64,000 nt of DNA, from positions 2,108,001-2,172,000 of the forward strand of contig JAACJO010000005.1 in NCBI GenBank assembly GCA_013368445.1, given 5' to 3'. The first letter of the stretch is position 1, and the number at the start of each line of letters is the position of its first letter. The notes below the pieces were generated by a model. It did not search any database. It saw only the letters and a program-made list of their open reading frames with translations, and was not told where the DNA came from. This document shows, one piece after another, positions 6,841 to 46,939 of this stretch. Source of the DNA: Leucocoprinus leucothites. Lineage: Eukaryota; Basidiomycota; Agaricomycetes; Agaricales; Agaricaceae. The position numbers were made by a program, and so were the translations under genes.

Positions 6841-7213
6841 TGTCGAAGCAGCAATGGGGAGCGTAGTGGTGAAGGTAGACGACGAGGTCGAGACTCACTT
6901 TACTAGGCAGTTGGTCTGTTATGGGAGTTGTTAGAAGTAGTAGTTGCGACTGAGAGTGTATAATTGACTGTAGGATATCGAAGAAAATACAAGGTATTTA
7001 TACTAAAGAGTTCAAATAATTTCTACTATAAAGAGAGTATTACACCATCGTTTCGAGGTGGTAAAGGGTACAAGTAAAACATATAGTGAAACATGTATAG
7101 TCTGCACAAAGCATCGGTGCGTGAACATAGTGGTATCTAATAATAGAATGCATATGTCATAATTGAGAGTGAACACGAATGTAGCAGCGTGTAGACGCGC
7201 ATGTGATTCAATA
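6841..7213 (-). repeat. Copia 3' LTR
   Basis: 373 bp, starting TGTCGAAGCAGC and ending TTCAATA on the plus strand; the last CA is changed to TA by a transition relative to the other LTR. As the element is on the minus strand, this is its 3' LTR. Confidence 0.93.
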
Positions 7214-7226
7214 CTCCTCCTCACTC
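7214..7226 (-). promoter_or_regulatory. Copia polypurine tract
   Basis: Minus strand GAGTGAGGAGGAG lies directly against the 3' LTR, the position and composition expected of the plus-strand DNA primer. Confidence 0.7.
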
Positions 7227-7290
7227 GAAATGGCGGGAGATGCATAATTGAGCGACTACGAAAGCGCTTCATTTAAGCGGCTAAAAAGCA

Positions 7291-10200: not shown

Positions 10201-12603
10201 TACGATGGGGAGCTCAAAGAGATCACTGTGAACGTGCTCAAAGGCTTCTTTTGCCCGAATTGGGTTATCATTAAAGGGTTTCTGGTGCATCTTCCCTTTC
10301 ATGCAGCCTGGACAAGGGCGTGAATGATCGGGAATTGAAACCTGAGGTCCATTCAGCGTGGAGTCTTTAATTTTGCTCAACACACGATTAGACGGATGTC
10401 CTAAACGTTGATGCCAGATGTTATAGTTAGGATGCTGAGCGATGTGGCTTGAAGCATTCGAATGTACAATTCGACATCTTACTGTTTGTAGCGTAGGCTG
10501 CCACTCAGAGCGAGGAGCCGCTGACAGGACAGCATTGCCTGACTCATCCCAAAAGATTGTACCATGTTTATCAGCCTCACTGCGCAACCCAGATTCCAAG
10601 AGTTGACCGGCAGACATGAGGTGATTGTGCATACCCTTTACATAGAACACAGGGGACAAAGAAGTCACCGCAGTGATCATTTTTCTGTTATCATGGATCT
10701 CGTGTTCGATCAAGACAGTGCCTCGACCCAATATAGATAGGGGAGCGTTTTTGTTAGCTGTCTGAATTTCACCGAATTTCCCCATTTCGATTGTAGAAAA
10801 ATTGTCCAAATAGGGTGTGAAATGTGCAGAAGCACCCGAATCAAGAATCCAAGAAGCAGCCTGTGAAGGCGCTTTCTTTCCCTTACAGTGGCAACATAAA
10901 GCTTTCTCACACTTAGATAGATTTACACAGCACAGCACAGAGGTCAAATCACAATTTAATAAAAGCCCCACAGGGGCGACTGAAATAGTGCGCAATACAA
11001 GACAAGTATATACAGGAGCCGGAGACGACGTAACTAGTCCGTGAAAATGTTCAGCGTGGCCAGGAGTGCTCACATGGGAGCAGGCTCGAGTGGGGCGACA
11101 GGCCCCTTCTCGGTCATGCTGTGGCATCACCGTATCAGTGTTAATCCAATCAGAGATAGAAGAAAAGACTTGCGTTGTCCACAACCCAGAAGTCCACCCA
11201 TCAGAATCCTCCCCCTTGGAGTTGGATTCGAGCATCGGATCAGCCGGAGGTGTCATCCTCAGCGATGGTGGGCATTCATCCATATCTCCTCCATAATAAG
11301 GAATTTCCTCAATAATGGAGCCCGTCATTTTGGCTTCGACCACGAGGTCGGCGAGCCTTTCATCCCAAATCTTTAGCACTTTATCCTTGGTAGCTTGTGA
11401 GCTTCTGTGATGATATCCCTTGGACTGAGGAGATTCGGAGATTCGCTCCTGAAGCCGCGGTGTATTCTTTCGCGCTTCTGCAACAAGGTGGCGTGTGGAT
11501 GACGAAGGGCTTGCGTTAACCGGTTCTGCCAGTGAGGCGATCCGGTTCGTGAGGAGAGGATGGTTAGCGATAGCGGGGGCAGCGAAACCGATGGCACTGG
11601 AAGCCCCATATTGAGGAGCGACGGTGGTGACTCCAGAGGAGTTGGAGGTGTTGGCATTGGTCGCAGCTTCATTAGCAGCGCCCTTGCCTTTTTTGCCTCC
11701 TCTCTTACCGCGTTTTCCTTTCTTGCCATCTCCGCCGGGATTGCCAGATTGGGGGTTACCAGGCTTCTGGCCAGCGCCCTGATTAGGAGGCTGCTGCTGC
11801 TGTGGCTGCTGCTGGGGCTGTGATCAAAACGGCCCTTGTTGTCCTTGCCCCTGGTGTTGTTGATTGCCGGGGTTCCGGTTCTGCTGCCATTGACTGTTGG
11901 AGCGGCCGGCGCGAGAAGTGGAAGCAGTCATCTTCTGGGACCAAGCAGCCTGGATGGCGCTACGGACCAGATCCCATGTGAGTTGGGACATTTGCATTTG
12001 GTTTGCAAGGATAGACTGCGCTAAGGTTTCCATCCCTTGTGGGACAGCACAAAGTAGAATCATAGCATGGATCACCTCGGGAAGTCGCGCAGTCGTGCCT
12101 TCGATCCAAGTGAATAGAGATTTGAGCTCAGCGATGGACTGAGCTGGATCCATGTTTCCGGGGAGAGACCAGGAGACGGCGCAGATGAAGTTGCCATAGA
12201 CTGATGCAGGACCTTGGGTGCCATAAAGGCGTTGGAGTTCATCCCAAGTGGTGGCGGGATCTCCTTGGACGATCAAATGGAGCATGGAATCCGGGACAGC
12301 TTGGATAAGCATGCCAATCGCAGATTGCTCAAGGAAGTTCCTTCGACGCTCTTCCTCAGTTCGAAGTGCATGGGAAGCAGCAGCTTCTGCAGCATTCGTG
12401 ACATTATTGTCAGCATCCATGACTGGAGCGACAAGAGGTGGAAGCGGAGGGACCATGCCGTTTGTGACAGTCCAACCCGTAAGAGGGGTTCCAGGGGTCG
12501 TGATCATAGAGAGGAATCCCTGCATCCTCATGGACCAAAACTGGTAGTTCTGGGGGCCTTGAAGGATGGGAATTCGAGAAGCTCCGTTGTTGATAGAAGA
12601 CAT
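7291..12603 (-). pseudogene. Copia Gag-Pol polyprotein, five in-frame TGA codons
   Basis: One continuous frame of 1,771 codons from ATG at 12603 to TAG at 7291-7293, broken only by TGA at 11824, 10033, 9886, 9211 and 7426 (lowest coordinate of each). All five fit CGA-to-TGA. Order: Copia Gag (residues 1-260, NYQFWSMRMQGF); a Gln-rich then Lys/Gly/Arg-rich stretch (about 261-310) without a clear CCHC knuckle; aspartic protease (WILDSGASAHF, about 585); integrase zinc module (HQRLGH, CPGC) and core (HQQNGRVERLNQ); RT of the RVT_2 type (KNRWVYNIK, VDIKTAYLYGDL, VVYVDDVFF); RNase H (SDSDWAQD, SSTEAEYMEL, YGDN). Apart from the stops the catalytic residues look intact, so loss of coding is recent. 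Confidence 0.92.
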
Positions 12604-12845
12604 TCTGAAAAGAAGTCATCAGTCAACATTGTTCATTAGAAGCAGCAGTGATGCACTAATCGAGCAAGGTTTCGAACCCAAATCGCCTAAGGGCTAGGGT
12701 AAGACACAGAAATGAGAAGGGATGCTGGGCCCTTCACAAGGTACAGCGGTGGCGCTAGGAAGCGGCCTTCCCATAACAGGTCAATCTAGTCCTTCTCAGA
12801 CATCAAGCACAGCGAGCTAGTCGGCTAGTGCGATATCGAGCTGGC

Positions 12846-12862
12846 GATCGGGGCCCATAACC
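12846..12862 (-). promoter_or_regulatory. Copia primer binding site, initiator-Met tRNA internal (half-tRNA) type
   Basis: Directly inside the 5' LTR the minus strand reads GGTTATGGGCCCCGATC. Its complement contains GGGCCCATAACC, the anticodon-loop region of eukaryotic initiator tRNA-Met, as in Drosophila copia, which primes from a cleaved half tRNA rather than the tRNA 3' end. Confidence 0.75.
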
Positions 12863-13235
12863 TGTCGAAGCAGCAACGGGGAGCGTAGCGGTGAAGGTAG
12901 ATGACAAGGTTGAGACTCACTTTACTAGGCAGTTGGTCTGTTATGGGAGTTGTTAGAAGTAGTAGTTGCGACTGAGAGTGTATAATTGACTGTAGAATAT
13001 CAAAGAAAATACAAGGTATTTATACTAAAGAGTTCGAATAATTTCTACTATAAAGAGAGTATTACACCATCGTTTCGAGGTGGTAAAGGGTACAAGTAAA
13101 ACATATAGTGAAACATGTATAGTCCGCACAAAGCATTGGTGCGTGAACATAGTGGTATCTAATAATAGAATGCATATGTCATAATTGAGAGTGAACACGA
13201 ATGTAGCAGCGTGTAGACACGCACGTGATTCAACA
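12863..13235 (-). repeat. Copia 5' LTR
   Basis: 373 bp, TGTCGAAGCAGC to TTCAACA on the plus strand, same length as the left LTR. It keeps more CpG than the other LTR. It is the 5' LTR of the minus-strand element and should hold its promoter. Confidence 0.93.
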
Positions 13236-14967
13236 ATCCGATGTTGGCGGTCCTCTACTACATCCTAAACGTGTCTGGTGGTACCTGGGTTTCTACTTTG
13301 ACCATTGATTATCATTTCAAGAACACGTCCAGTATTATTCTACCAAAGCATTATCCACGGTGAAAGCTATGGGTATGCTAGGCAATTCCACCCAAGGTCT
13401 CCTTCCTCTACAGAAATGTCTGCTTTATAGGTCATGCGTTATCCCCATGGCTACATATGGATTCCGACTTTGGTACTTTGAAGGCACTCATAACAAGGCA
13501 CTTCTCAAGTCCTTATCATCTATGCAAAGATGCACGGCTCTCTGGATCACAGGCGCCTTCCGCACTTCCCCATCAGGTGGCACTGAAAGTATTGCTGGAC
13601 TTATTCCAATCCACCTCCATCTTCGTAAATTAGCTGTTCACTCGTCGTATCAAATCTCTACTTTACCCTCTAATCATGCGTTACGTTCTCTTTTATCTAA
13701 CAACTTCTCTCTTAACTCCTCCCCTCATCCCCAATCGCTTTGCTTTCTCACTCCGGCCAAAAAAGCTAAAGTCAAAGGCCCCCTTATTGATGTAGATAGT
13801 TCTCTCTCTCATCTTTCTGACTCTTTTTCTCCATTCACTCCTGAATCAAAGCCTGGATCTTGTCTTATGGACATCTTTCCTGATTCTCCTGATTCTATTC
13901 ACTTTCACCCCTGCAATCGCTCGGATAAACGCGAAATGTACAAACATGTATCGTCTCTCGAATTAGTTTTTTCCTCTTCTTCTTCCGATCATAATTGTAT
14001 TTTGGTTGTTACTGATGCCTCCATCCCACTTGTAGGTTCCCTTCAGGCAGTCTCAGTGGCATATCTATATCATGGCGGATGGAAAGTGTCCCATGCAAAA
14101 CAGGCTAGTGGTTGGGTGTCGTCTACTGATGCCGAACTCTATTCCATTTGTATTGGCATCGCCAAGGCCATTTCCCTTCATTGCAACCACATCATCCTCA
14201 TCACCAACTGTCTCCCTGCAGCCAGGCTAGCAGTCGATCCCTCTATACACTCGAGTCAATCACACTCTATCCAAGTCTGCCAACTCTTATCCAACTGGCT
14301 CGCAGCCAAACCTTCTCATTCTATTGACTTCTGGGACGTCCCTTCCAAATAGTGCTGGAAGCCCCATCGAAAAGTCCACAACGACGTCACCACCACACGC
14401 ATACATGCCCCCCCTTGTTTAGGCGCCACTCTTGACTTTCTGCAATGCAAAATCACCAACGACTGCCAGAAATCCTGGGAGTCCACTTTCTGGAAGAAGA
14501 AGTACCATGGCAGCGGTTTCCTTCTTTCCAAAAAGAATTGCATGTTCCTCATCCCCACTTATGTCAAGGGGGGCACCTGGCTTCCTTTAGCCAATGAATC
14601 GCCATCATTATGCATGCGTATGTCCCGCGCCATCCTCAATCATGCTCCTATTGGAGCTTATCGCGAGAGATTCTTCCCTCTCGAGCCCAAGTCCTGTCGT
14701 TGCGGCCATCGTCTGGAAACACGACATCATATCCTGTGTTACTGCCCCCTCTATCCCTTCCGCACTCAATGGGTGCAATGCGCTTTCCCTCAGTACGAGT
14801 TCCTTGTTGAGTTCTTGAAAAAGAACCCGGCCGCTTTTGCCTTTACCAATCATGACATGCATCCACCGCCGCCTCAAGCTCCTGTGCCCGCTGAACCAAA
14901 TGAAGGTGAACTATACTCTCTTATTTCATCTCTCTTCTTTTCCTTTGAGTCCGATCTCTGTGTATGA
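13236..14967 (+). pseudogene. LINE-A ORF2, RT thumb, RNase H and C-terminal Cys/His part
   Basis: Continuation of 4605-6840 after the Copia insert. The RT C-terminal region (MGMLGNSTQG, MATYGFRLWYF) leads to RNase H (VVTDAS, STDAELYS, ILITNCLPAARL), where the third acidic residue is Asn; copy 3 has ITDC. The C-terminus carries a Cys/His cluster (CRCGHRLETRHH, CYCPLY) typical of Tad and I-type LINEs. It ends at TGA 14965-14967 after SFESDLCV. A TAG at about 14350 and an early stop near 13313 interrupt it. Confidence 0.85.
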
Positions 14968-15108
14968 CACCTCATTCAATAGTCTCTATCAAGTCTTCTC
15001 TATATTGCTGGACTAATCGTGTATAGTCTCTGTCTCAAGCGGTCTCCGACCGCTTCATGTACCCCAGCTTGCTGTAGTGTACCGTCTGTTTGTAATATCT
15101 AGTTGAAA

Positions 15109-15172
15109 GCAGACTGCGATCAAGCACCACTATATAAATTCATTGATTTAAAAAAAAAAAAAAAAAAAAAAA
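15109..15172 (+). other. LINE-A 3' tail and poly(A)
   Basis: Reads GCAGACTGCGATC, GCACCAC, TATATAAATT, CATTGATTT, then 23 A. The same blocks in the same order end the gag-only families, which otherwise have different 3' UTRs. There is no hairpin between TATAAATT and CATTGATTT here, unlike GO-A and GO-B. Confidence 0.75.
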
Positions 15173-16915: not shown

Positions 16916-16926
16916 CATGCGCTAGT

Positions 16927-18041
16927 GGCAAAGCACCTGCTCAGGTGCCCCCTGCTCCTAAGGTTAGGTCTGATGGCCAAGCCTGGTGAGTGCCCATCCC
17001 ACCCTCGGTGGCTAAGAAGTCATTCGCTGAGGTTGCCCACACTCCAGTGTCTGCAGTAGCGCTCATCAAGCTTGCCCAGTCCCACCCCACCCTTGAGCCT
17101 GACTGCGTTGCCGCAATGCATCAGACTGCTCTTGCTGACACACCTTCTGCAAAGAAGCCCCACATGACCATGTCGGGCCCCACCTGGCACCAACTCTTCC
17201 TCGATTTCACTGGCAATGCTAGTGATATCACCTACCTCCACCATAAGGCCATGCGCCTTCTTAATGACTCCCTCACTCATGCGAAGAGTTCCCTTCGCAT
17301 TGAGAACATCGCCTGAGCATACAACACCATCTTATTGTACACCAACACTGTTGCCACTGATGTGGACGCATTAGTGATCGAATCTTCCCTTTCTTCAGCC
17401 TTCACAGCTCTGTTCGAGCTGAAGACCAAACGTCCCAGGTCCAGGTCTTACCTCAAGATCCTGGACGTCCCTTACTACACAAGTGGCATCTGTACCACTC
17501 CACAACATGTCTCTGACCATATGCACTTGTCTCTCTTCAAGAAGATTTTTGCCGACATCTCCTCCATGTGCATCATGCGCAACTCTGCCAAAGCCGACAC
17601 TACCACGGTTTGGGTTGACCTTTGGGATTCTCAGTCTGGTGCTAATGCTAAGCGCCTGGTTGGCAAATACCTCAACTTCGATGGTGTGCAGACTATGATC
17701 AAGGCTGTGCGTGCTCACCCCCGGACCCCCCAGTGTCAATGATGCTGGCGTTGGGGCCACACTACCACCACCTATTGCAACCATGCGCTCAGGTGCTCAC
17801 ACTGCAGTGGGCCACATCAGTCCAAGAATCACTGCACTACCTCCTCCTACTGCAAGGGGTCGCCAAAGGCCAACCCCCCCATCCAGCCCACACCCGCCAG
17901 GGAACCCTGTCCCCATATCAAGTGTGTCAATTGCAGCAAGGAACATGCTGCTAATGACTGCAAGTGCACGTTCTGGCGCCACCGGTTTGATCGGGATTGG
18001 CTGCAAAGTCATTCTGGTCCTGCTGGTCGGCCCCGGGCCTA
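16927..18041 (+). pseudogene. GO-B Gag C-terminal half
   Basis: Continues the gag of 16098-16517. It contains the Pro-rich linker, WDSQ domain (VWVDLWDSQSG near 17630) and Cys/His array to the stop at about 18041. Stops include TGA at about 16987, 17314-17316 (an Arg or Trp position elsewhere) and TGA at 17740-17742 inside the first zinc knuckle, where homologues read a Cys/His residue after CQ. Confidence 0.75.
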
Positions 18042-18296
18042 GGGGGAGCTCCCTAGTGTCAACACATCGTCCCCCATCCATCGCCAGTTGCCAGATGGGC
18101 TCCCACCAACCTCAAGGCCTGCCATTCCAGATGCAGTGATATCGGTATATGTTTCATTTCTTTGTATCTCGTCACATGCCTAGCCCCCTTCTGCTGTCAT
18201 TTCGCGTATTGTCTCGGACAGGACTTTTATATATATTCCTGGTTGTTTGCTCTTGCATAGTTGGTAGCAGTATCAGTTCCCTGTAGTAGATAGTCG

Positions 18297-18380
18297 GGTG
18301 TGGACTGCTATCACACACTGCATTATAAATTTGGACCCCTCCGGGGTCCACTGATTTAAAAAAAAAAAAAAAAAAAAAAA
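18297..18380 (+). other. GO-B 3' tail with 8-bp hairpin and poly(A)
   Basis: GGACTGCTATC, CATTATAAATT, then a perfect hairpin (18332-18339 pairs with 18343-18350, loop TCC), ACTGATTT and 23 A. Compared with the GO-A hairpin at 1633-1653, exactly one C-G pair is absent from both arms, so pairing is kept. Confidence 0.7.
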
Positions 18381-19543: not shown

Positions 19544-20880
19544 TGTATTCGAGGTGGAATCGGCGGCACACTTATATCGCAGTGGACGACAAGTGTCCCA
19601 TGCAAAGCAGGCAAGCAGCTAGGCGTCTTCCACAGATGCTGAACTGTATTCCATCCGCATTGGTATCGCCAAGGCCATCTCCCTCCAGTGTAATCACATC
19701 ATCCTCATTACCAACTGTCTCCCAGCAGCCAAGCTGGTAGTTGATCCTTCTATCCACTCGAGCCAGTCACACTCTATCCAAGTCTGTCAACTTCTATCTG
19801 ACTGGCTTATGGCCAAACTATCTCAATCCATCAACTTCTGGGACATTCCTTCCAAGTGGCATTAGAAGCCCCATCTTAAAGTCCACAATGACATCACTAC
19901 CACACACATACATGCCCCTCCTCATATGGGTGCCACTCTTGACTTCTTGCGACATAAAGCCACCAATGACTACCAGAAATCCTAGGAGTCCACATTCTGG
20001 AAGAAGAAGTACTGCGGCAACGGCTTCCTTCTCTCCAAAAAGAACCGCAAATTCCTTATCCCTACTTACATCAAGGGGGGCACCTGGATTCCCCTAGCCA
20101 ACAAGTCCACATCATTATGCGCACACATGACTCATGCTGTCCTCAATCACACTCCCATTGGAGCTTATTGCAAGAGGTTCTTCCCCCTCGAGCCCAAATT
20201 CTGTTGCTGTGGCCATTGTCTGGAAACATGACATCATATCCTGTGTTACTGCCCCCTCTATCCCATTCACACACAATGGATACAATGTGCCTTCCCTCAG
20301 TATGAGTTCTTGAAAAAGAACCTGGCTGCTTTTGCCTTTACCAATCATGATACGCATCCGCCGCCGCCTCAAGTTCCTGTGCCCGCCGAACCAAATGAAG
20401 GTGAACTATATTCTTTCATTTCATCTTTTCTCTTTTCCTTTGAGTCCGATCTCTGTGTATGACACCTCGTTCAATAGTCTCTCTCGAGTGTCTTCTATAT
20501 TGCTGGACTAATCATGTATAGTCTTTGTCTTAAGCAGTCTCTGACCGCTTCGTGTACCCCAGCTTGCTGTAGCATACCATCTGTTTGTAATATTTAGTTG
20601 AAAGTGGACTGCAATCGAGCACTGCTATATAAATTCATTGATTTTTTTAAATAAAAAAAAAAAGTATTCAAGGTGGAACACAACAAGGTGATAACCTTGC
20701 TGTATTCATAACTATATACAACAATGTACAGACCAACTATACAGTACCAAAACAAATGTAAACTGATGAGGACAAACACATACAAACAATATACATAGAG
20801 TGATGCTAATAATAGTCCATAGCCGAGATGGCCGACTTACCCGAGATGACCGAGTCTGGGTGGATTACCCTCCTCTAACA
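19544..20880 (-). repeat. Copia-like LTR (about 218 bp), interrupted by a LINE-A tail
   Basis: After removal of the LINE-A insert (19560-20663 plus one TSD copy) the sequence runs from TGTATTCRAGG to CCTCTAACA, a TG...CA unit; on the minus strand it starts TGTTAGAGGAGG and contains TATA-rich sequence and an AGCAAGGTTATCACC-like end typical of Copia LTRs. The 5-bp flanks (GACAA and CTATC) do not match, so it is not a clean solo LTR. Confidence 0.5.
19560..20663 (+). mobile_element. LINE-A 3' fragment (RNase H to poly(A))
   Basis: 5'-truncated LINE-A of about 1.1 kb. It covers part of RNase H (SSTDAELYS, ILITNCLPAAK), the C-terminal region with CCCGHC-like Cys/His cluster, the stop near 20461, 3' UTR and A-rich tail. 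Several stops interrupt the frame. TSD GTATTCGAGGTGGAA (19545-19559) and GTATTCAAGGTGGAA (20664-20678) differ by one CG-to-CA change. Confidence 0.88.
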
Positions 20881-22258
20881 CTATCCAAGTCTCCCGGGCT
20901 CCCCCTCCACCTTCCAATCACATGACTCCAAGGAACAGGAATGGAAATTTCGAGCGCTCAGTTGGGCTCCCTTCTCCTGATGGCCAGGCTCAGCCATATA
21001 AGCCCAACCCTAAGGGCACCTCTGAAATGCCACCCCCTATTCCCCCTCCTGACTGCAAGGTATCCACCAAACCCCTTATGGAACATTTCAACAAGAAGAA
21101 TGTGTTGTTTGCTGATGCTGCCCAATGGGGTGTCCAGCCATCGACTTCCTCTTCCTCCTCTCCCCTTATCGATGGGGTCAAGATGCAAGAAATGATACTT
21201 GCCTTCTCCAAACTCTCTTATAACAAAGTCCTTGCCATGTATAAGGCAGTTTTTGGTAATGCTCAATCTCAAGTGCCCAAACCTTCGACCTCAAGTACCT
21301 AATGCGCTAAACCAAAAATGACAATGCACGGTCCTACCCATTGCCAAGTTCTCATTCCTTTTGAGGAAAACATTATTGCAGATCGAATCAAAGACTTTAA
21401 CAAAGCAGCTGAGTTCTGCAACCGTGGCCTTACTGCCGCTCAATCTTAACTTCACATTGAATCTGTTCGCAAATCATACAATGGCATATCCATTGCCACT
21501 TCGGGCATCACCACTCTTACTGACCTCACATTAAGTCCTGACTGAAAAAAGCCTGGCAACTCAGAGACACTATCCCCATTGAGCCCCGTCTTCCACAATC
21601 CAAATCATTCCTCAAAATTGTTGGTGTCCCTTACTGGGTAGCCAATTCCTCCAACCCTCTTTCTCCTGCTTTTGTTGAGCAGGCCCTTGGCCAATCTTCC
21701 CTCTTTGAAAATGTCATCCTCACTGCTTGCCCTTGCATCATGAAAGCCTCCCCCAAGTCAGATACAGCTGTTGTATGGTTTGACATCTGGGATTCCCAAA
21801 ATGGTACTAAGGCCAAGACATTGGTCAACTATACTATCAACTTTGGCTGACATGTCGGCACCATACAAGCTACCAGTATGCACCCTGGTATTGCACAATG
21901 CAGAAACTGCTGGTGGTGGAGCCACCCCACTTATGCGTGTTATGCCCTTGGCACTTGCTGTCAAATTTGTGGTGGTTCTCATCACATTAAAAATCATCAA
22001 TCTATGGCCTAGTGTTGCAAGGCCAATCCTAAATCCAACCCCCCTTGTGATGCCACCCCTGATGGCATCCCCTGCCCTCATCTTGAGAATTTCAAATGTC
22101 TCAACTGCAAAGGTGATCACCATGCCAATGACACTAAATACGCATTCTGGAGAAACAGGTTCAACCATACCTGGCACTCTAACAAAGCCACCAAGTCACA
22201 TACTGCATGTGCTGTCCATGCCAATACCAATCACTCCAATGGTGGAGTTACAGTTTAA
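20881..22258 (+). pseudogene. LINE-A ORF1, copy 2
   Basis: Colinear with 3230-4602. It keeps APPPPSNHMTPRNRNG near the start, the WFDIWDSQNG signature (about 21780) and Cys/His motifs, but carries many stops (for example TAA at 21300-21302 and TGA at about 21849) and at least one small deletion near 21525. The ORF1 stop (22256-22258) and ORF2 start (22261) keep the same 2-bp spacing as copy 1. Confidence 0.8.
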
Positions 22259-25200
22259 ATATGTCTGGTAAGAACAATATTATTTCTTCTGTTTGTATCT
22301 ATTCACAAAACATGGGATGCTCTTATGCCCTTGTTGACACTATTCTTGAGTCCAAGAAGCTAGACTTTGACATTATTTTTCTATAGGAACCACTGTGGAA
22401 TCACATCTGCAAAGCACCCTCTATGACTAACTCTGAAGGGGACAATGTCATAGGTACCCCTATACATCCTGAGTGGCTGTGTATGGTTTGCCCTACTAAG
22501 CCCAATGACCCCCATCTCTGTACTCTGACCTATGTTCACAGATGTCTACTTTGTATGAGACCCATCCTTTGACAAGAGTGGATTAATCACTGCGATATTC
22601 AAATTCTGGGTTTATTTAACCAGGGTAATTATATTCATTTTCTCAACATATATTCTAACTCGTCATCATTGGTGATCAATTTTCTTTCAACAAACTTCAT
22701 TGACATTCCTAATATTGTGTATATGGGAGGTGACTTCAACTGTCACTCTCCAGAATGGGATCCCTTAGCTTCTCTTCTCCCTCATTCCACCATAACTCTA
22801 ATGGAGTTAGTAGATTGTTTTAATCTAACCAGGTCCATACCAACCATCTCTTCCCCTACCCATTTTTCTTCTATTGAAGAGCATGATAACTCTGTTATCG
22901 ATCTCATTTTTTGTGCTAACAATTCAACCCTCCACATTATTGATGTGAATTCAAGACTACTTTCAGATCACGCTCCCTTGCTTATTGATCTCCTGATTCA
23001 CCTGGATCATATTAATTATAGAAAATGTGTACTGTCAAAGGACAGCAATGAAGAGACTGCTTTTTATTTCTCATGTCTCAGAGCACCTATTGGCTATTGA
23101 TTGTTTGAACATTCACTCTACTTCTTGCTTGAACAATATTTCCGACTCCATTTCCTGTATATTTTCTGATTTATAGAACACAAACTCTAAAACTGTATGG
23201 ATCACTAACCGGTCGAAAGAATGGTGGACCTCCCACTGCTCTGAGACTTTGCTTACTTACAGGAGAACCAAGGACCGAAAAGACTGGTGAGCATTCAGAG
23301 TGGCTACTCGTGCTGTCAAATGCTCTTTTTTTGATGAACACATACACGAAATAGCATCAACCGACAAACAACCCTGGGATCTTATAGAATAGGTCAAACA
23401 GTGAAAACTCCCTGCCATTGAGGGCATCTGATATCAAGGACACCCTTGCAATGATCTTCCAGACTTGTAGAATGCACTTCACTCGTCATATAACTCTGCA
23501 TCGGGATGACTGGTAAGCCCTCATATTCTGAATGAAATGAAATCCTTCCCTCCCTGTTCCTGGGCAGACTCTCCACTCTTGCACTCACCAAATCCCTTTT
23601 GTCTTGTGCTAACTCCTCAGCGCCTGGACCTGATCACATTTCTTGGTGGCATTTAAAGTCTATCATTGCCCATGATGATTGCCTCAAGAACATTATACTC
23701 ATTGCTAATGCATGCATATGTCTTTCTCATTGGCTGAGTCACTTCAAAGACTCAGTCTCTATCATCATTCCCAAGCCAAATAAACTGGCCTATGATACCC
23801 CTAAAGTGTTCTGTCCTATTGTTCTACTTAACACTTTAGGTAAACTAATCAAAAAGATGATCGTGCACTGCATGCAATTCAAAGCGGTCTCTTCAGGTGC
23901 TCTCCACCCAAATCAAATGGGCAGGGTTATTCAATGCTCCACTGAAGATGCAGGTGTTTTCCTCACTCACATCATTTGAGCCAGATGGGCCAAAGATATG
24001 ATCACTAGTGTTTGTGCCTTTGATATTGCCTGATTCTTCCCCTCCTTAAATCACGACATCCTCACTGACATCTTGTGATGCCAGGGGTTTGCCCCAGAAC
24101 TCATAAATTTTTTCTCCCATTACCTTATAGGTTAATCGACTCAATTTATGTGGAATATCTTCCTATCTGATGCCCATGACACAGATGTTGGCATAGGGCA
24201 AGGTTCAGCTCTTTCACCCATACTCTCAGCGCTCTACTTGGTGCCTCTTATGTTCATGTTTGACCAATGTGCTCATCTACAATCTATCCCCTCTTCCCTT
24301 TTATCTTTTGTTGATGACAGGCTCTGTATATCTCAAGTGAAGAATTATACTGACACTATTTCTTCCCTCAAATCAGCATACTCCATCATTAACTCCATAT
24401 GTACTGACCTTGGACTAGTTGTCAAACACAACAAATCTGAGGTTTTCCACTTCTCTCGTCGCCACAATGATTCTAATCCCCCACTCAACTTATCCAACAT
24501 CAGTGGTCCTCTCCTTCACCCAAAACGCTTCTGGCGATACCTTGGTTTCTATTTCGACTGCTGACTCTTATTTCCAGAGCACATTTGATATTACTCCACC
24601 AAAGCACTATCCATGGTGAAAGCTATGGGTATGCTAGGCAACTCAACCTGAGGACTTCTCCCTCTCCAAAAATGACTCCTATATAGGTCATGCATTGTCC
24701 CCGTGGCAACATATGGCTATTGACTATGGTACTACAAGGGTGCTCGTAACAAGGTGCTTCTTAAGTCCTTATCTGCTATGCAAAGGTGCATGGCTCTTTG
24801 GATTACCGGTGCCTTCTGCACTTCTCCATCTGGTGGTGTCAAAAGTATTGCTGGACTTATTCCTATCCATCTTCATCTTTGTAAACTAGCTATTTGTTCT
24901 TCATATTGAGTCTCTACTTTGCCTTCAAATCATGCATTACACTCTCTTTTATCTGATTGTTTCTCTCTTAATTCTTCCCCCATCCCCAATCACTTCGCCT
25001 TGTCACTACGGCCAAAAAAGCTAAAGTCAAAGGCCCTGTTATTGATGTAGATAATTCTCTTTCTCATCTCTCTGATTCTTTCTCTCCCTTCACTCCTGAA
25101 TCCAAGCCTGGGTCTCATCTCATGGACATCTATTCTGATTCTATTCATTTCCATCCTTGTAATCGCTTGGACAAGCACAAGATGTACAAATATGTATCAT

Positions 25201-25901
25201 CTCTCAACTCGATTTTTTCCTCCTCTTCTTCTGATCGTAATTGTATATCAGTTGTTACTGATGCCTCTGTTCCCCTTGTAGGTTCCCTTCAGGCAGTTTC
25301 AGTGGCAATTTATATCGTGGTGGATGACAAGTGTCCCATGCAAAACAGGCAAGCAGCCGGGCATCCTCCACAAATACCAAACTCTACTCCATTCACATTG
25401 GTATTGCCAAGGCCATCTCTCTCCAATGTGATAAAATTATCCTCATCACCAACTGTCTCCCAGCAGCCAAACTGGTGGTCGACCCCTCCATTCACTTGAG
25501 CCAGTCATATTCTATTCATGTTTGCTGACTCCTATCTGACTGGCTCGCAGCCAAACCATCTCATTCTATTGATTTCTGGGACGTCCCATCCAAGTGGTAT
25601 TGAAAGCCCTACCTCACAGTTCATAATGATGTCACTACCACACGCATCCATGCCCCTCCCCACATGGGTGCCTATCTCGACTTCTTGTGATGCAAAGTCA
25701 CCAACAATTGCCAAAAATCCTGGGAATCTACATTCTGGAAGAAGTACCATGGCAATGGTTTCCTTCTTTCAAAGAAAAATTGCAAGTTCCTCATCCCCAC
25801 TTACATCAAGGGAGGTACCTTGCTTCCCCTAGCCAACGAGTCACCATCACTTTGCACTCACATGACTTGGACTATCCTAAACCATGCTCCTATCGGAGCT
25901 T

Positions 25902-28193
25902 TTTTTTATTTATTATTTATTTTTTATTCAACATGACCCTGAAGGGGTCACAAATTTATAACGCAGTGTGCGATAGCAGTCCGTGCCCAACTACTACAAC
26001 ATGCAGAAAGTACCGCTACCAACTACACATCTACATAGCTAGGTATAAATATGAGTCTGAAGTCCACCTAGTACAAACAACATCTTCACGCAGTGGTACA
26101 TAGTTCGAAATGAAAGCATACTACAATACAAGTCAGGCTGTTCTGTTTTACCAGCGGATGGAAGTGCACGGCATGGATCTCCAGGGCCCACTATGCACAG
26201 TGCAGGGGCAGACAATGCGACCTGTAGGGAAGAGAACCCTACAGATGCGACCAAGCGGCATCATGACAATGGTTTTCAAGCCAAAGCCAGTCAAACCGGT
26301 GTTGCCAGAATGGGCATTTGCAATCGTCAGCTGCATGTGACTTGGCGCAGTTGATGCACTTGATATGAGGACAGGGATCCTCAGCAGCGGTGGGCAGGAT
26401 AGGGGGATTTGCCTTCAGACTCCCCTTACAACAGCTCAAGTGGGAGCAGTGGTTCTCAGTATGATGAGGACCACCGCAGGCGGCACATCGCAATGCACGG
26501 GCGTGGCACAATGAGGTAGAATGCCCCCAGCGCCAGCAACGCTAACACTGTGGACTGCCTGGGTGAGCGCATGCAGCCTGGATGACGGACTGAACACCCT
26601 CGAAGTGGAGGTACTTGCCCAGGAGCTTCTTGGTGCTTGCTCCTGATTGAGAGTCCCAGAGGTCGAACCAGACGGTGGCGGTGTCGGCTCTGGTGGAGTT
26701 GTGCATGATGTGCATGGAGGAAACATCTGCGAAAATGTCCTTGAAGGCAGACAATCGCATGCGGTCGGTCACGTGATTCGGCGTGATGTGGACACTGTTC
26801 ACGAAGTAGGGGACATCGAGGACCTTGAGGTAGGACCTCGACCTGGGGTGGCGCGTCTTGATCACAAAGGGGGCGGTGAAGACAGAGGGGATGGAGGACT
26901 TAATGACATCACAATCGGCATCAGAGGGAACAGAGGAGGTGTGCAGCGCAATCGTGCTGTATGCCTTGGTGATGTTCTCCACACGCAAGGTTGACTTGGT
27001 GTGGGAGAGGGAGTCGTTGAGAAGGCGCATGGCCTTGTGATGGAGGTAGGTGACCTCATCAGCACTGCCGACAAAGTCGAGGAAGAGTTGGCGGTGGGTA
27101 GGGCCTGCAGTTGTCATGCACGGCTTCCGAGTGGTGGGAGCGGCGGCTTGGGCGGCCTGATGCATAGCAGTGATGTAATCAGGATTGAGATCAGGGTGGG
27201 ATTGCGCCAGCTTGATCAGTGACGCAACTCCAGCAGGGCAGGCTGCCTTGGCGAAGGACTTCTTGACCAAGGTGGAAGGAGGGGGCGCTTTGGTGGGCGC
27301 TCGCTGGGCTTGGCCGTCAGACCTAACCCTAGCTTGGGGAGGGCCACTAGCGCGTGCTTTGACAGGCGCTTGCTTGGGCGGTAGAGTGGGACAGGCCGGG
27401 GCGGGCCGATGATCCGGGGGCATTTGCTTGGGTGCTTCAGGTTCACCCATGCTAATGTCATGAGGACCCGCTTTGTCAGCAGATCCGTGGGACAACTTGT
27501 GGTCGCCGTGTGGTTGATTAGGGCCGGTCAAAAAGCCCCCAGAGCAAAGGAAGGAGTCGACCGTGGGCCACCCCTGCTTCTGTAGAACCAAGGAGAGTGG
27601 GGTATCGCCCCAGCCTTTCCTTCTGAATTCCCATAGGCTCCCAATGAGGTAGAGAGCGAACGAGCGTCGGGCCGTGTCGGTCATGGCAGCAGCGGGATCA
27701 AGATTTGAGAACCATCTCCCAAATCGACGAAGACCTTCATAGGCAGCAAGGGCCTCCTCCTCCAAGTCAGGTCCAATGGAAGAGGGAGCAGAGGGGCCAG
27801 CCCGGGGTGCGATAGAGCCGCTGGGGGCAGCAGTGGAAGGACCTGCAGGGCTCAAAGCCACCAGAGGTTGAGTAGTAGGTGCGAGGGACGAAACGTCACC
27901 AGGCACCGGGCGAGGAGGCAACTCAAAGTCAGCCTCAGGGGGAATGGACCGAGGTCCAGAGAAGCCACGGACATTGCGTGGGTCGTCATATGGGTCGAGA
28001 TGTTTGTCCTCGGACATCTCGGTGATGTTGAGCTTGTCATCGGAGGCATTGGTGGACTCGGTTGTTTGGCGTATAGCCTGTTTGGCTTTGGACTTTTGTT
28101 TACCCATGTAGAATAGGTAGAATATGATGTGTAACTAGACGTCTAATCAAACACCAACTTTCGATGGTGGTGGTAAGAGGTCAAGGAGGGATG
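25902..28193 (-). mobile_element. GO-A gag-only element, full length with TSD
   Basis: A complete 2,292-bp gag-only element inside LINE-A ORF2, bounded by a perfect 14-bp TSD TCCTATCGGAGCTT (25888-25901 and 28194-28207). This fixes the true 5' end as CATCCCTCCTTG (28193 downward) and the 3' end as a T-rich tract on the plus strand (25902 upward). Between them lie a short 5' UTR, a Gag ORF (28107-26239) and a 3' UTR of about 310 bp. Because both ends are defined, absence of any polymerase is a property of the element and not of truncation. Confidence 0.93.
26239..28107 (-). pseudogene. GO-A Gag, near-complete (622 residues, one nonsense codon)
   Basis: ATG at 28107 to TAG at 26239. The only break is TAG at 26542-26544, where the 1-1689 copy has CAG inside the first zinc knuckle (C-Q-H-C). 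Order: MGKQKSKAKQ, an acidic segment with HLDPYDDPRNVRGFSGP, a Pro/Ser-rich region, a helical module (EEEALAAYEGLRRFGRWF, GSLWEFRRKGWGD), the HGSADKAGP and DISMGEP linker, a basic Pro/Ala stretch, the WDSQ domain and three Cys/His motifs. The N-terminus resembles the N-myristoylated MGKQNSK start of visinin-like proteins. It probably binds element RNA; membrane association is only a hypothesis. Confidence 0.88.
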
Positions 28194-28726
28194 TCCTATC
28201 GGAGCTTACCATGAGAGATTCTTCCCCCTTGAACCCATATCCTGTCATTGTGGCCATCACCTGGAAACACAACACCACATTCTATGCTACTGCCCACTTT
28301 ACCCCATTTGTACCCAGTGGGTTCAATGTGCCTTCCCTCAGTACAAGTTCCTTGTTGAGTTCTTGAAAAAGAACCCGGCTGCTTTTGCCTTCACCAATCA
28401 AGGCATGTGTCCACTGCTGCTTCAAGCCCCTGTGCCTGCCAAACCAAATGAAGGTGAACTATACTCTTTCATTTCATCTCTTCTATTTTCTTTTGATCCT
28501 GATATCTGTGTATAACACCTCGCTCTATAGTCTCTCTCAAGTCTTTTTTATCTTGCTGGACTAATCATATATAGTCCTTGTCTTAAACAGTCTCTGACTG
28601 CTTCTTGTACCCCAGCTTGCCATAGCATACTGCCTGTTTGTATTATTTAATTGAAAGTGGACTGCAATCAAGCACCGCTATATAAATTCATTGATTTAAA
28701 AAAAAAAACAAAAAAAACAAAAAAAA

Positions 28727-29096: not shown

Positions 29097-31378
29097 CATC
29101 CCTTCTTGTCCTCTTACCACCACCATCTCTTGAGTTGGTGTCTTAGTTTGAACACAATACTACATTGTCTACACTAGCAAAACATGGGTAGGTGAAAGTC
29201 TAAAGCTATTAGTCATGAGATCATGAACATGGACCTCGACTCTAACATTGCATCCAGCAATGACGAGCTTGACACAATTGAAGAGGCCCCCAGGCCCTCC
29301 ACCTCCACCTAGCCTAGCTGCTCAATAGTGGAATTCAAGGCTCTGGCCGCCTCCATGAGGGCTGATGTTCAGTCACCCTCACCTCTTCCCTCGGTGCCTG
29401 CTGACGTTCCATCGCTGGTGCCTACTACTGAGCCTCCAGTGACCTTAGGTCCCAAGGCCCCACTCGTTGCTGGTAGTACCACATACTACCCAGTTCCCAC
29501 TCCTCCCCCGATTATGCCATCCACTCCATTGTCCTCCACTGGGACCATGCCTGGAGACGATGCTGCAGCCAAGTGGGCTTTCAAAGGCCTCAAGAAGTTC
29601 TCGTGCTTCATGTGAGAACTCTGACAATTCCCTCCTTGATGAGGACTATGCCAAGGTGTGTGCCAGCTATCTTGCTAGTGCTGTCTATGAATTTGAGATG
29701 AGTGGGCATGGGAGTGCACACATTTCCATGGGCAAACAGTGGGCCAGCCATGGCTGGACCACCTTTCGCTCCTTCATGCAGGGCTTTGCTCAGTTCAATG
29801 AGCTGGAAGCCTCTCCTAAAGACATACATGTCATCCATGAGGCAACCCATGGATCTGCTGACAAAGCAGAACCATGTGACATTGACATGGGCTCCCCCAA
29901 GGTACCCAAGCAAACACCCAAGGCTCTGTGGCCCACTCTGGCCCAGCCCCCTGTACTGCCCAAGCAAGCGCCCCCTAAGGCACATGCTAGTGGCCCCCCT
30001 CGAGCGCCCACAAAGGTGCCCATCCCCACTTCTGTTCCAGTGCCTCGTCAGCACTCATTTGCAGAAGCTGCTCATTCTGGCACTTTGGCACCACCTATGT
30101 CACTCATCAAGCTGGCATAGGCAAACCCCTCCCTTGACCCTGATCACATTGCTGCAATGCATCAGGCTGCCACTACCACCACCACCTCTGCCAAGAAGCC
30201 ACACATGACCACTGCCGGGCCCACCTGCTGCCAATTATTCCTTGATTTCACTGGGGATGCCAGTGAGATCACCTATCTCCACCACAAGGCCATGCACCTT
30301 CTCAATGACGCCCTCTCATGTGCCAAGTCTTCTTTGCACATTGAGAATATCACCAAGGCATACAGCACCATTGTGCTGTACACCTCTGCCGTGCCCTCAG
30401 ACTCTGACATCCCTGTCATTGAGTCTGCTATCCCCTCCATCTTTACCACCCCATTCAAGCTGAAGATGTGCTGCCCCAGGTCAAGGTCTTATCTCAAGAT
30501 CCTCAATGTCCCCTTCCACATGAACAGCATCTATATTACACCAGTTCAGATCACCAATTGCATGCAATTGTCTCCATTCAAGGACACTTTTGCTGATGTT
30601 TCATCTGTGCGCATTATGCACAACTCCCCCAAGGCCAACACTGCCACCATTTGGTTTGACCTATGGTACTCTCAGTCAGGAGCCGGCACCAAGAAGCTCC
30701 TCAACAAGTACCTCAACTTCAACGGTATGCAGGCTGTCATCAAGCCCACCCGTGCTCACCCTAGTGTTCCCCAGTGCCAGCACTGCTGGCACTTTGGTCA
30801 CTCTACTCCCACCTGCCACAACCATGCACTCAGGTGTTCCCAGTGTGGTGGTCCTCACTGTAGTGAGAATCATCGATCCACATCATCATGCTGTGAGGGG
30901 AGTCTGAAGGCAAACCCCCCCATCCTGCCCACACCTGCCAGGGAGCTCTGTTCCCACTTCTCATGTATCAACTGCAAGGGTGACCATGCAGCTGATGATT
31001 GAAAGTGCCTGTTCTGGTGCCACTGGTTCGAGCGCGATTGGCTCCACTATCACAAGGAGGACAATAGGAGGCCCTGGTAGTAGGTTGTATACCTGCTTCA
31101 ACACATCTTCCAACCCTGTTGGTATGTTGCTAGGGCTACACATGTATGTAAGCTTACTGTTAGAGGTCTGCGAGTTGGAATTTAGTTTCATTTCTTTGTT
31201 ACTATGCCATGTCTCTTTGCCATCAAGTAGTGTACTATATTCAGACAGGACTTTATCTATTCCCATCTTTGTAGTGTTTGGCTTAGGTAGTGGTACTTAG
31301 GTCCTGTACTATGTTGGCAGGCACAGACTGTAACTGGGCACCGCATAATAAATCATTGATTTAAAAAAAAAAAAAAAA
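29097..31378 (+). mobile_element. GO-C gag-only element, full length
   Basis: Starts CATCCCTTCTTGTCC, has a gag at 29184-31080, a 3' UTR distinct from GO-A and GO-B, the tail CAGACTG, GCACCGC, ATAATAAAT, CATTGATTT and poly(A) 31363-31378. The flanks share only GAAGCT (29091-29096 and 31379-31384), a weak TSD candidate. Unlike GO-A and GO-B the tail has no GACCCC hairpin. Confidence 0.8.
29184..31080 (+). pseudogene. GO-C Gag
   Basis: ATG 29184 (MGR, stop, KSKA: the fourth codon is TGA). Further damage: a TAG near 29310, a 2-bp deletion near 29612 relative to 57352, TAG at 30118-30120 and TGA at 31000-31002. Modules: MVEFKALAASMRADV-like N-terminus, helical module (AAAKWAFKGLKKF, YLASAVYEFEMSGHG), HGSADKAEP and DIDMGSPK linker, WDSQ-like domain (here WYSQSG), zinc motifs CQHCWHFGH, CSQCGGPH and CINCKGDH. 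The GO-C N-terminal module differs from those of GO-A and GO-B while the second half is alignable. Confidence 0.8.
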
Positions 31379-40341: not shown

Positions 40342-40550
40342 CTCTTTCATCTCGGACTATGTACCACAGCATGAAGATGTTGTTTGTACTAGACAGACTT
40401 CAGACTCATATTTATATCTAGCTATGTAGATGTGTAGTTGGTAGTGGTACTTTCTGTATGTCATAGTAGTTGGGTGCAGACTGCTATCATGCACCATGTT
40501 ATAAATGGACCCCTTCGGGGTCTACTGATTTTTTTTTTAAAAAAAAAAAA

Positions 40551-41675
40551 GCCATGCACCTTCTTAATGACTCCCTCTCTCATGCAAAGAGCTTGCTTCA
40601 CATTAAGAATATTGCCAGGGCATATGACACCATCTCGTTGTACACCAACTCCATCACCACTGATGCTGAGGCATTGGTGATCGAATCCTCCCTCTCTTCA
40701 TCTTTCACAGCCCCATTCGAGCTGAAAACTAAATGTCCCAGGTCCAGGTCTTACCTTAAGATCCTGAACATCCCTTACTACATGAGTGGTATCTGCACCA
40801 CCCCACAACACATCTCTGACCATATGCGCTTGTCTCCCTTCAAGGAGATATTTGCTGACATCTCCTCCATGTGCATCATGCACAAGTCTGCCAAAGCTGA
40901 CACCACCACCATTTGGGTCAACCTTTGGGATTCTCAGTCCGGTGCTAACACCAAGTGCCTGGTCAGCAAATACCTCAACTTCAATGGCATGCAGTCTATG
41001 ATCAAGGCCATGCATGCTCACTCTGGGACCCTCCAGTGTCAATGATGCTGGCATTGGGGCCACACTACCACCACCTGTCATAACCATGCACTCAGGTGCT
41101 CACAATGTGGTGGGCCACATTGGTCCAAGAATTACCACACCACCTCCTTCTGCTATAAGGGGTCACCAAAGGCTAACCCCCCCATCCAGCCCACACCTGC
41201 CAGGGAACCCTGTCCCCACATCAAGTGCATCAATTGTGGCAAGGAACATCCTGCTACTAACCACAAATGCATGTTCTGGCGCCACCAGTTTGATTGGGAT
41301 TGGCTGCAAAGTCATTCTGGTCCTGCTGGTCAGCCCTGGGCCTAGGGAGAGCTCCCTAGTGTCAACGCATTGTCCCCCATCCTTCACCGGTCGCCGGGTG
41401 GGCCCCTACAAACCTCAAGGCTTGCTACTTTCAGATGCAGTGATATTGGTATATGTTTCATTTCTTTGTATTTCGTCACATGCCTAGTCCCCCTTCTGCT
41501 GTTGATTCATGTATTGTCTTGGACAGGACTCTTATATATATTCCCAGTTGTCTACTCTTGTGTAGTCAGTAGTGGTATTGGTTCCCTGTAGTAGATAGTT
41601 GGGTGTGGACTGCTATTGCACACCACATTATAAATTTGGACCCCTCTGGGGTCCACTGATGAAAAAAAAAAAAAA
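40551..41675 (+). mobile_element. GO-B element, 5' truncated
   Basis: Starts in gag (MHLLNDSLSHAKS) immediately after the GO-A poly(A) at 40550. It has the WDSQ domain, zinc motifs, GO-B 3' UTR, hairpin tail (GGACCCC and GGGGTCC) and poly(A) 41662-41675. It is the third element in a head-to-tail run with those at 29097 and 31379. Confidence 0.85.
40553..41345 (+). pseudogene. GO-B Gag, 5' truncated
   Basis: Gag second half ending QSHSGPAGQPWA and TAG near 41345. TGA at 41043-41045 falls in the first knuckle (CQ then stop then CWHWGH), the same site as in the copy at 17740, so the two copies share this nonsense change and may be sisters. Cys/His residues are eroded in the second motif (TSFCYKGS). 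Confidence 0.78.
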
Positions 41676-42037
41676 GCAGTGAAGGGCTTTGGGGATGGTG
41701 ATGGGATGTCAGCTGTGAGGGGAGTTACCGGCTGTGATAGAACATCAGCAGCAGGCAAGGAGGAGGGTCCAGGCGATGAGATGTCAGCCCAGGGAGAACC
41801 AATGAACCCATGAACATTGTGGGGGTTGTTGTAGGGGTCAAGATGTTTGTCCTCAGACATCTCAGCAATGTTGAGCTCATCAGCAGAGGCTTTGGTGGAC
41901 TCGGTTGTTTGGAAGGGAGGCTTGTTAGACTTAGATTTATGTTTACCCATGTAGCTACGAGTAGACACAGTAGTATTGAACTTGAAATGCAACACACCAA
42001 CTAAGAGATGGTGGTGGTAAGAGGTCAAGGAGGGATG
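41676..42037 (-). pseudogene. Gag-only element, 5' fragment of a further subfamily
   Basis: Minus strand: element 5' end CATCCCTCCTTGACC at 42037, ATG near 41951 and Gag N-terminus MGKHKSKSNKPPFQ, SEDKHLDPYNNPHNVHGF to SPSPKPFTA, then cut at 41676. Its N-terminus is closest to GO-A but the following Ser/Pro part resembles GO-B. Confidence 0.75.
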
Positions 42038-42475
42038 TATAGTACACTACTTGATGGCAAAGAGACGTGGCATAGTAACAAAGAAATAAAACTAAAGTCC
42101 AACTCACAGACCTCTAACAGTAAGCTTACATGTGTGTGTGGCCCTAGCAACATACCAACAGGGTTGGAAGATGTGTTGAAGCAGGTACACAACCTACTAC
42201 TGGGGCCTCCTATTGTCCTCCTTATGACAGCTAAGCCAATCACGGTCAAACTGGTGGTGCCAGAACGGGTACTTTCAATCATCAGCTGCATGGTCGCCCT
42301 TGCAGTTGATACATGAGATATGGGGACAGGGCTCCCTGGTGGGTATGGGCAGGATAGGGGGGTTTGTCTTTGGACTCCCCTTACAGCACAACAATGTGGA
42401 GCAATGATTCTCACTATGGTGAGGACCACCACACTGGGAACACCTGAGTGCATGGTTGTGGCAGGTGGGAGTAGA
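42038..42475 (-). pseudogene. GO-C fragment (Gag C-terminus and 3' UTR part)
   Basis: Minus-strand GO-C zinc motifs (LRCSQCGGPH, CINCKGDH, with the same TGA after AADD as other GO-C copies) and 3' UTR, ending at GTACTATA where the 5' end of the adjoining element begins. The same join occurs at 55372/55373. Confidence 0.75.
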
Positions 42476-46435: not shown

Positions 46436-46939
46436 AGTAACATAGATAGATGATGTAAGAATGCCTCAGAACAAACACCAACTTTCAATGGTGGTGGTAA
46501 GAGGACAAGGAGGGGCATGTCAGTATAGTTCTTTGGTTGAGATATACAAAGCCCATCATCAACAAAAGATAAAAGGGAAGAGGGGATAGATTGTAGATGA
46601 GCATGTTGATCAAACATAAACATGAGAGGTGCCAAGTAGAGTACTGAGAGGATGGTTGAAAGAGCTGAACCTTGTCCTATGCCAACATCCGCACTATGGG
46701 CATCAGATAGGAAGGTATTCCACATGAATTGGGTACACCGACCTATAAGGTAGTGAGAGAAAAATTTCACGAGTTCTGGGGTGAACCCCTGGCATCACAA
46801 GATGTCAGTAAGGATATCATAGTTCAGAGAAGGGAAGAATTGGGCGATGTCAAAAGTGCAAACACTAGTGATCATACCTTTGGCCCATCTGGTCTGAATA
46901 ACATGAGTGAGGAAAACACCTGCATTCTCGGTGGAGAGG

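Follow-up and report, generated by a model that had tools for sequence, protein, structure and literature searches.

The element and its family

A 64-kb stretch of DNA from the Agaricaceae mushroom Leucocoprinus (Leucoagaricus) leucothites (the window; positions 2108001-2172000 of contig C5 in an assembly of 47.0 Mb and 110 contigs) contains, at 25902..28193 on the minus strand, a complete retroelement of 2292 bp with a Gag-like protein and no polymerase. Its limits were set from its ends and from a 14-bp target-site duplication (TSD; left copy 25888..25901, right copy 28194-28207). On the minus strand the element opens with the 5' end CATCCCTCCTTGACC... (28163..28193), continues with a Gag/ORF1 open reading frame (ORF) of 521 amino acids (26542..28107) and closes with a 3' tail of type A, in which a motif at 25954..25983 is common to this element and an autonomous long interspersed nuclear element (LINE), here LINE1. 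Homology to Gag runs on to about 26254, through a CCHC region; the 521-aa ORF has an in-frame stop upstream of this zinc-knuckle region. The insertion site is ORF2 of a LINE1 copy, and matches to LINE1 ORF2 flank the element at 25304-25966 and 28192-28512. Within the element, tblastn in the window found no ORF2 remnant, save that the first of these matches overran from the host LINE1 by 65 bp.

Elements of this plan, with a CATCCC 5' end, one Gag/ORF1, a 3' tail, poly(A) and TSDs and without endonuclease (EN) or reverse transcriptase (RT), are referred to as gag-only. The exact 15-bp 5' end occurred 178 times genome-wide and its reversed control not at all. The proposal in an initial annotation of the locus that it belongs to a mobile, poly(A)-tailed gag-only family was borne out. 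TSDs of 13-18 bp, with one mismatch in five cases, were found for 14 distinct elements, namely 13 of 30 fetched gag loci (the focal copy included) and the window element at 56836; an internally deleted copy in the window is additional. This count is of positives, with no tally of loci having both ends and no TSD. With a poly(A) end, no long terminal repeat (LTR) and TSDs of variable length, the gag-only elements are non-LTR retroelements moved by target-primed reverse transcription (TPRT), as had been annotated. An LTR/Ty3 origin was rejected: no LTR was seen, the TSDs measured 13-18 bp and the Gag was homologous to LINE ORF1.

In the genome search for gag, 83 of 1113 candidates were scored, so its counts are lower bounds. 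Of the 86 scored matches, 13 are full length and stop-free, each in a frame of 610 codons or more; the focal ORF stops early. For 65 of the listed 5' ends, no scored gag lay within 900 bp; 16 of these, all on the plus strand, were fetched, and gag started about 85-130 bp behind the 5' end in 14 of them. A gag match was absent behind the other two (L086 and L087), of which L087 opened with gag-like letters by eye. Subfamilies with different tail types were all gag-only in the copies examined. A third version of the tail, gag-like and ending in ...TTATAAATCTTTGATTT ahead of A-rich sequence, was present near 4206 on the minus strand of one further locus (L100, reverse complement). The N-terminal halves of Gag (L082-L097) appeared mosaic by eye, motif blocks such as ADVPSPLKPYTVGTRTFVPITPPPP recurring in otherwise different subfamilies, possibly through template switching or recombination.

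An RT-bearing LINE with similar ends

LINE1 is a 7-kb LINE (ORF1 plus EN-RT) of the same clusters as the gag-only elements. At one locus (L061, C28:198000-207900), a LINE1 of 6991 bp with both ends complete and a 15-bp TSD sits inside a gag-only element; its ORF1 frame of 849 aa is below the length of most other copies. The ORF2 of this copy contained the Pfam domains RVT_1 (E 6e-22) and Exo_endo_phos_2, and an RNase-H-like domain was marginally below the cut-off. Full-length, stop-free ORF2 was seen in 4 of 35 scored matches, all on C28 (35 of 928 candidates scored). The LINE1 5' end pattern occurred 88 times, as against 0 for its control.

The 5' ends and 3' tails of gag-only elements and LINE1 were alike, not identical, and in each of four comparisons, among them that of the focal 5' end, the likeness was reached by 0 of 1000 shuffles. 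The tail was conserved over about 60 nt between the two and was followed by poly(A). Ahead of the poly(A), type A tails contained an ACCCC/GGGGT hairpin in two arm versions, of which RNAalifold kept three pairs in a mixed alignment. For the tail common to both, the idea of a hairpin with covariation was dropped on the basis of covariation shuffles and RNAalifold.

A second EN-RT lineage, LINE2, was 53-58% identical to LINE1 in RT and about 46% in EN and had its own ORF1 (L098, L100, L101). Of 12 LINE2 RT matches that were 76% identical or better, 11 were interrupted by stops, as were 4 of 17 LINE2 EN matches (117 aa), and the shared tail was not seen in the single LINE2 3' region read (L098). 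LINE2 was rejected as an RT-bearing version with this Gag, as its ORF1 (L100, L101) was 28-41% identical to gag-only Gag and fell outside the gag-only group. LINE-type RTs were also seen outside the clusters, at L058 (C29:292514) and on C12 and C81; unlike LINE1, they gave a longer RVT_1 match. The clade name HaTad/Tad may apply to these LINEs by analogy with Agaricus bisporus. Public gene models of these retroelement ORFs (P0003, P0007-P0010) appear to have been merged or truncated where insertions are nested, and their names include hypothetical and endonuclease/exonuclease.

Absence of a polymerase from gag-only copies

Among the 100 listed gag-only 5' ends (of 178), none had a scored ORF2 within 4.5 kb, four had a LINE1 ORF1 within 3 kb (2122-2913 bp) and two had an EN within 4.5 kb. 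Both of the latter were nested insertions. In the C5 case (L099), two gag-only 3' tails stood between the 5' end and the EN. In the C13 case, gag was interrupted near residue 447 and was followed by LINE1 ORF2 from residue 58, the LINE1 tail and poly(A); gag restarted at residue 445 after a short repeated sequence, with a gag-only tail next. This order of gag, ORF2 and gag pointed to a 5'-truncated LINE1 nested in a gag-only copy.

Judged by coordinates, an EN lay within 6 kb downstream of gag-only gag in 13 of 86 matches and ORF2 in 6, at no common distance. The smallest gap to an EN was 764 bp (C41), where the poly(A) and TSD of the element at L009 ended about 110 bp before the EN; further gaps of 1764, 2002 and 2645 bp are known from coordinates alone. 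In LINE1, the EN lay 632-714 bp past ORF1 in 33 of 53 copies (coordinates), and ORF2 lay 228-232 bp past it in 14 of the 15 copies with a scored downstream ORF2 and 356 bp in the other. No copy with exact gag-only ends had its own EN-RT among those listed or fetched, in agreement with the initial annotation, and no Pfam EN or RT domain was matched in the gag-only Gag protein.

Relationships, selection and predicted structure of Gag

Gag-only Gag and LINE1 ORF1 were about 25-45% identical in the C-terminal part only. Homology over this half reached a tblastn E of 4e-53, and the first approximately 200 residues of Gag had no match to LINE1 ORF1 (tblastn, window). In an unrooted tree of the C-terminal region (28 rows), the 17 gag-only rows (10 of the 30 gag loci, 6 window pieces and L061) stood together on one side of a branch supported at 99/99 and found in 100% of 200 bootstrap trees. 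LINE1, LINE2 and three database Gags (P0004-P0006) each formed their own group, with a long-branch warning between LINE1 and LINE2. A protein database search gave four matches to Gag and four to LINE1 ORF1. The database Gags, of 556-623 aa, joined the gag-only group at 93/79, slightly below the support mark of the tree tool.

The ratio of nonsynonymous to synonymous substitution (dN/dS, NG86) was computed for 378 non-independent pairs of 28 sequences, namely 27 of the 30 best-scoring loci (the partial L026, L029 and L030 being dropped) and L061, with stop codons and gaps skipped. The median was 0.29-0.32 in all five dS bins and 0.24-0.30 without codons touching CpG. Against the diverged L061 subfamily it was 0.31 at a dS of about 1.1; with CpG codons dropped, dN in this comparison was 0.19 in the C-terminal and 0.48 in the N-terminal half. 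These values, near 0.3, indicate that gag-only Gag is under purifying selection, a check proposed in the initial annotation, with no bearing on which copies are active. The stops in gag matches were mostly TGA, as would be expected from CpG decay of CGA.

An AlphaFold2 model of the 521-aa frame (8 rows) had a mean pLDDT of 51.8, with 74-92 in residues 351-410. In this model, poor overall, the C-terminal region formed a tandem beta-alpha-beta arrangement. The three Foldseek PDB matches with E below 0.001 were all tandem RNA recognition motifs (RRMs; U2AF65 best, E 2.6e-4; IMP3), at a target TM score of 0.26-0.33. CCHC-like spacing was recognized by eye in the longer Gag frames, with no Pfam match above the cut-off. 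One kind of LINE ORF1 protein consists of RRM plus CCHC, and the modelled C-terminal features of Gag would fit this kind.

Genomic location

Clusters were defined as LINE ORF1, ORF2 and EN matches plus 10 kb and covered 6.6% of 28.8 Mb on 13 contigs. They accounted for 50 of the 56 gag matches on these contigs, for 86 of the 99 gag-only 5' ends and for 53 of the 59 LINE1 5' ends. The six gag matches outside were within 31 kb, and the 13 such 5' ends within 78 kb, of a cluster edge; another 30 gag matches were on six small contigs. Each contig having matches had one cluster, which was near the contig end in C6, C8, C13 and C20. On C11, C12 and C14-C19 there was no exact 5' end among the 100 of 178 listed. 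Gag-only copies occurred in both orientations.

No TTAGGG run was found inside a cluster among the 100 of 180 listed, in contig order up to C19; this set has no run for C8 or C13 and does not reach C20. The listed runs on C2, C3, C4 and C6 were at or near the far ends, away from the clusters, and on these listed runs a telomeric location was rejected. All 180 TTAGGG runs were forward and none reverse, and one run on C2 was 40 kb inside its end. In the available text of a study of Agaricus bisporus, a member of the same family, each chromosome is described as having a single repeat cluster of 110-280 kb, taken as its putative centromere; four HaTad LINE families and two repeats of unknown kind occur only in these clusters (PMC7473861). 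By analogy, we infer that the clusters described here are putative centromeres.

Of the top RVT_1 matches, mostly LTR-type by match length, 14 of 74 were inside clusters. A family of LTR type was present genome-wide in many copies with identical RVT_1 score and 1138-codon frames on many contigs, suggesting a recent burst.

Other copies in the window

The window falls within a repeat cluster, and a large part of it consisted of nested gag-only, LINE1 and LINE2 copies. Nine gag-only 5' ends (at most 6 substitutions), 12 gag-only 3' tails, five LINE1 tails and 20 gag pieces (tblastn; cross-matches to LINE1 ORF1 excluded) were counted, consistent with the ten or more elements or pieces annotated initially. 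A second complete gag-only element occupied 56836..59129 on the plus strand; its type B tail, ...ATAATAAATCATTGATTT-poly(A), closely resembles that of LINE1. Its TSD (56821-56835 and 59130-59144) matched over 15 bp, of which 12 can be told apart from the poly(A) with certainty. A gag-only element with an internal deletion and nested pieces, at about 44555..46517 on the minus strand, was bounded by a 16-bp repeat (44539 and 46518). The TSDs annotated for these two copies and for the focal one, 12, 15 and 14 bp, were thus recovered, that of the focal copy at the same length.

Two further copies were joined by position: one at 53125..55372 on the minus strand (5' end 55342-55372, type A tail 53125-53154) and one at 29097..31360 on the plus strand (5' end 29097-29127, type B tail 31324-31360). 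The plus-strand copy at 3..1631 had its tail at 1602-1631 and its 5' end probably at contig position 2107374, beyond the window. Gag-only fragments with type A tails were located at 16921..18330 and 40527..41635 (both plus), two fragments at 41672..42475 (minus), one of them with an exact 5' end (42007-42037), and a copy with gag across several frames at 59929..61830 (plus).

The LINE1 copy hosting the focal insertion extended over 20868..28695 on the plus strand (ORF1 20868-21997; ORF2 22225-25966 and 28192-28512; tail 28658-28695). An interrupted LINE1 copy lay at 3118..15147 on the same strand (ORF1 3118-4341; ORF2 4569-6839 and 13237-14964; tail 15110-15147), as did a LINE2 copy at 46969..52931, in pieces at 46969-47787 and 50768-52931. 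A single RVT_1 match of LTR-type length was seen at about 36741-37223.

Interpretation and alternatives

The gag-only elements very probably constitute a non-autonomous Gag(ORF1)-only LINE family, which has its own, presumably RNA-binding Gag and is copied by the EN and RT of LINE1 via the shared tail. The observations that carry this reading are the structure of the copies, their TSDs, the shared ends, the lack of pol in the copies examined, the constrained Gag and the co-clustering with LINE1. The product of gag-only RNA would be a Gag that has RRM-like regions in tandem as well as CCHC-like ones and presumably binds its own RNA. The LINE1 machinery would recognize this RNA by its poly(A) and by the 3' tail common to both families, and would carry out TPRT; both families insert into single large clusters, the putative centromeres, often into one another. 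The reliance on an RT in trans proposed in the initial annotation fits the evidence, with LINE1 as the presumed source.

Several points weigh against this interpretation. Mobilization in trans by the LINE1 RT, transcription, tail recognition, the role of Gag and the centromere identity of the clusters are inferences. The shared ends also fit common descent without current use in trans, the score of LINE1 against the focal 3' end was 25 with a best shuffle of 24, and the tail hairpin was neither called by RNAalifold nor supported by covariation (2 double-change pairs, equalled in 497 of 500 shuffles). Single-pair dN/dS values, from pairs that are not independent, ranged from 0.21 to 0.68, with 0.68 in the lowest dS bin and the deepest bin near dS saturation. 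Outside the clusters there are further LINE-type RTs, L058 and two others. Scoring took in 83 of the 1113 candidates for gag and 35 of the 928 for ORF2, and 100 of 178 5' ends were listed, so that a copy with an RT, if rare, could have been passed over.

The initial annotation had itself raised the prospect that the same ends normally flank an RT-bearing element of which the gag-only copies are internal deletions. Similar, not identical, ends do occur on the RT-bearing LINE1, whose ORF1 is homologous to gag-only Gag in the C-terminal half. The gag-only copies are not its deletion copies, because their Gags form a separate group (the 17 tree rows stand apart from LINE1 and LINE2 ORF1), Gag is under purifying selection and no examined copy with exact ends has its own EN-RT. 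The unmatched first 200 or so residues of Gag, the lack of an ORF2 remnant in the focal element, the nested insertions at both listed 5' ends near an EN and the coordinate spacing also speak against it, and we rejected this origin as highly improbable; one ancient loss of ORF2 at the base of the family is possible and compatible with mobilization by LINE1. The constraint on Gag could instead come from an unseen or extinct RT-bearing sister with the same Gag, from which gag-only copies were shed repeatedly. HAL1 arose several times from L1, according to the available part of PMC5753468, and related Gags of 610 and 623 aa (P0004 and P0005) exist as database proteins; however, the assembly yielded no element of this kind at the search sensitivity applied, full-length frames are kept in 13 of 86 gag matches and the examined copies are gag-only in subfamilies that differ in tail type, and we consider such a sister quite improbable.

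It is decidedly unlikely that the RT is supplied by LINE2 or a different LINE, by an LTR element or by any RT that recognizes poly(A), with the shared tail reflecting ancestry only. LINE2 is present in the clusters, LINE-type RTs occur outside them (L058 at C29, C12, C81), and poly(A) alone is thought sufficient for mammalian L1 in the available text of PMC3747384. Nevertheless, LINE2 RT matches are mostly interrupted, although LINE2 EN matches mostly are not, the one LINE2 3' region read lacks the shared tail, and LINE1 shares about 60 nt of conserved tail with gag-only elements and keeps intact ORF2 copies. The clusters have a small but real chance of being other heterochromatin that tolerates insertions, with no targeting by Gag or EN needed. 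The centromere call is based on clustering, several large contigs (C11, C12, C14-C19) are without a listed exact 5' end, so not every one has a cluster, four clusters are near contig ends (C6, C8, C13, C20), and 14 of 74 LTR-type matches also fall in clusters. Against this stand the single cluster of each contig having one and the A. bisporus clusters with exclusive HaTad families, taken as centromeres in what is available of PMC7473861; cluster-free contigs may be chromosome arms. Beyond mobilization by LINE1, a two-part system that builds mushroom centromeres can be envisaged, in which the LINE gives EN and RT and the Gag of an old, diversified gag-only lineage, inherited across related fungi (P0004-P0006 join it at 93/79), gives RNA packaging and centromere targeting. 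Such a system would be to mushroom centromeres what HeT-A/TAHRE is to the telomeres of flies, and we regard it as unlikely.

Comparison with known systems

HeT-A of Drosophila has a poly(A) end. Its RT is presumed to act in trans, TAHRE being an RT-bearing relative with a similar Gag and TART/TAHRE the proposed source, according to the available text of PMC5537684. The parallel to HeT-A in the initial annotation held for the plan, that is Gag only, no pol and, as far as that source goes, an RT-bearing relative with a related Gag. It failed for the location: HeT-A forms head-to-tail arrays at telomeres, whereas gag-only elements lie in clusters off the telomere repeats, in both orientations and with TSDs. 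Moreover, the Gags of HeT-A and TAHRE are highly alike, unlike those of the gag-only family and LINE1. A precedent as close as HeT-A is HAL1 (half-L1) of mammals, described in the available part of PMC5753468 as non-autonomous and coding for ORF1p only. It is likewise an ORF1-only LINE derivative, but its origins are multiple there, whereas the sampled gag-only Gags form one group.

Among fungi, SINE2-1_BG, a short interspersed nuclear element (SINE) of Blumeria, carries the 3' tail of its partner Tad1-24_BG (HaTad1-3, 1-5) in the portion of PMC3747384 available. Such pairs resemble gag-only/LINE1 in the 3' tail common to a non-autonomous element and its partner LINE; the SINE has a tRNA-type promoter, whereas the gag-only element is protein-coding and also shares its 5' end with LINE1. 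The nearest fungal precedent in the sources available is MarorLINE-6 of the mushroom Marasmius oreades, an RT-less LINE possibly moved by MarorLINE-5; it occurs once in the A nucleotype, and no protein domains were detected in its insertions (PMC9674265, available part). Unlike here, no Gag family is described there. In searches of open-licence PMC literature, no fungal gag-only LINE family appeared among the papers listed, which is weak evidence of absence.

ORF1-only LINE derivatives are thus already known; a fungal, cluster-restricted, diversified example whose partner shares both ends did not appear in the literature searches. This case has 178 or more exact 5' ends, several subfamilies that have diverged, a Gag under constraint and a partner with an RT that can be identified. 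Two old questions can thereby be tested in a mushroom: what a non-autonomous element gains by retaining Gag (packaging of its own RNA, targeting), and how regional centromeres come to be rich in retroelements. The HaTad-type LINEs of A. bisporus resemble gag-only elements and LINE1 in being non-LTR families of single large repeat clusters, to which they are restricted on each chromosome, and no gag-only family is described in the available text (PMC7473861). The two unclassified cluster-exclusive repeats of that species could, by analogy, be counterparts of gag-only elements, a concrete guess for their nature. With an intact, constrained Gag, no pol in the copies examined and an RT-bearing relative, the family described here is a Gag-only LINE derivative, neither an autonomous LINE nor HeT-A proper.
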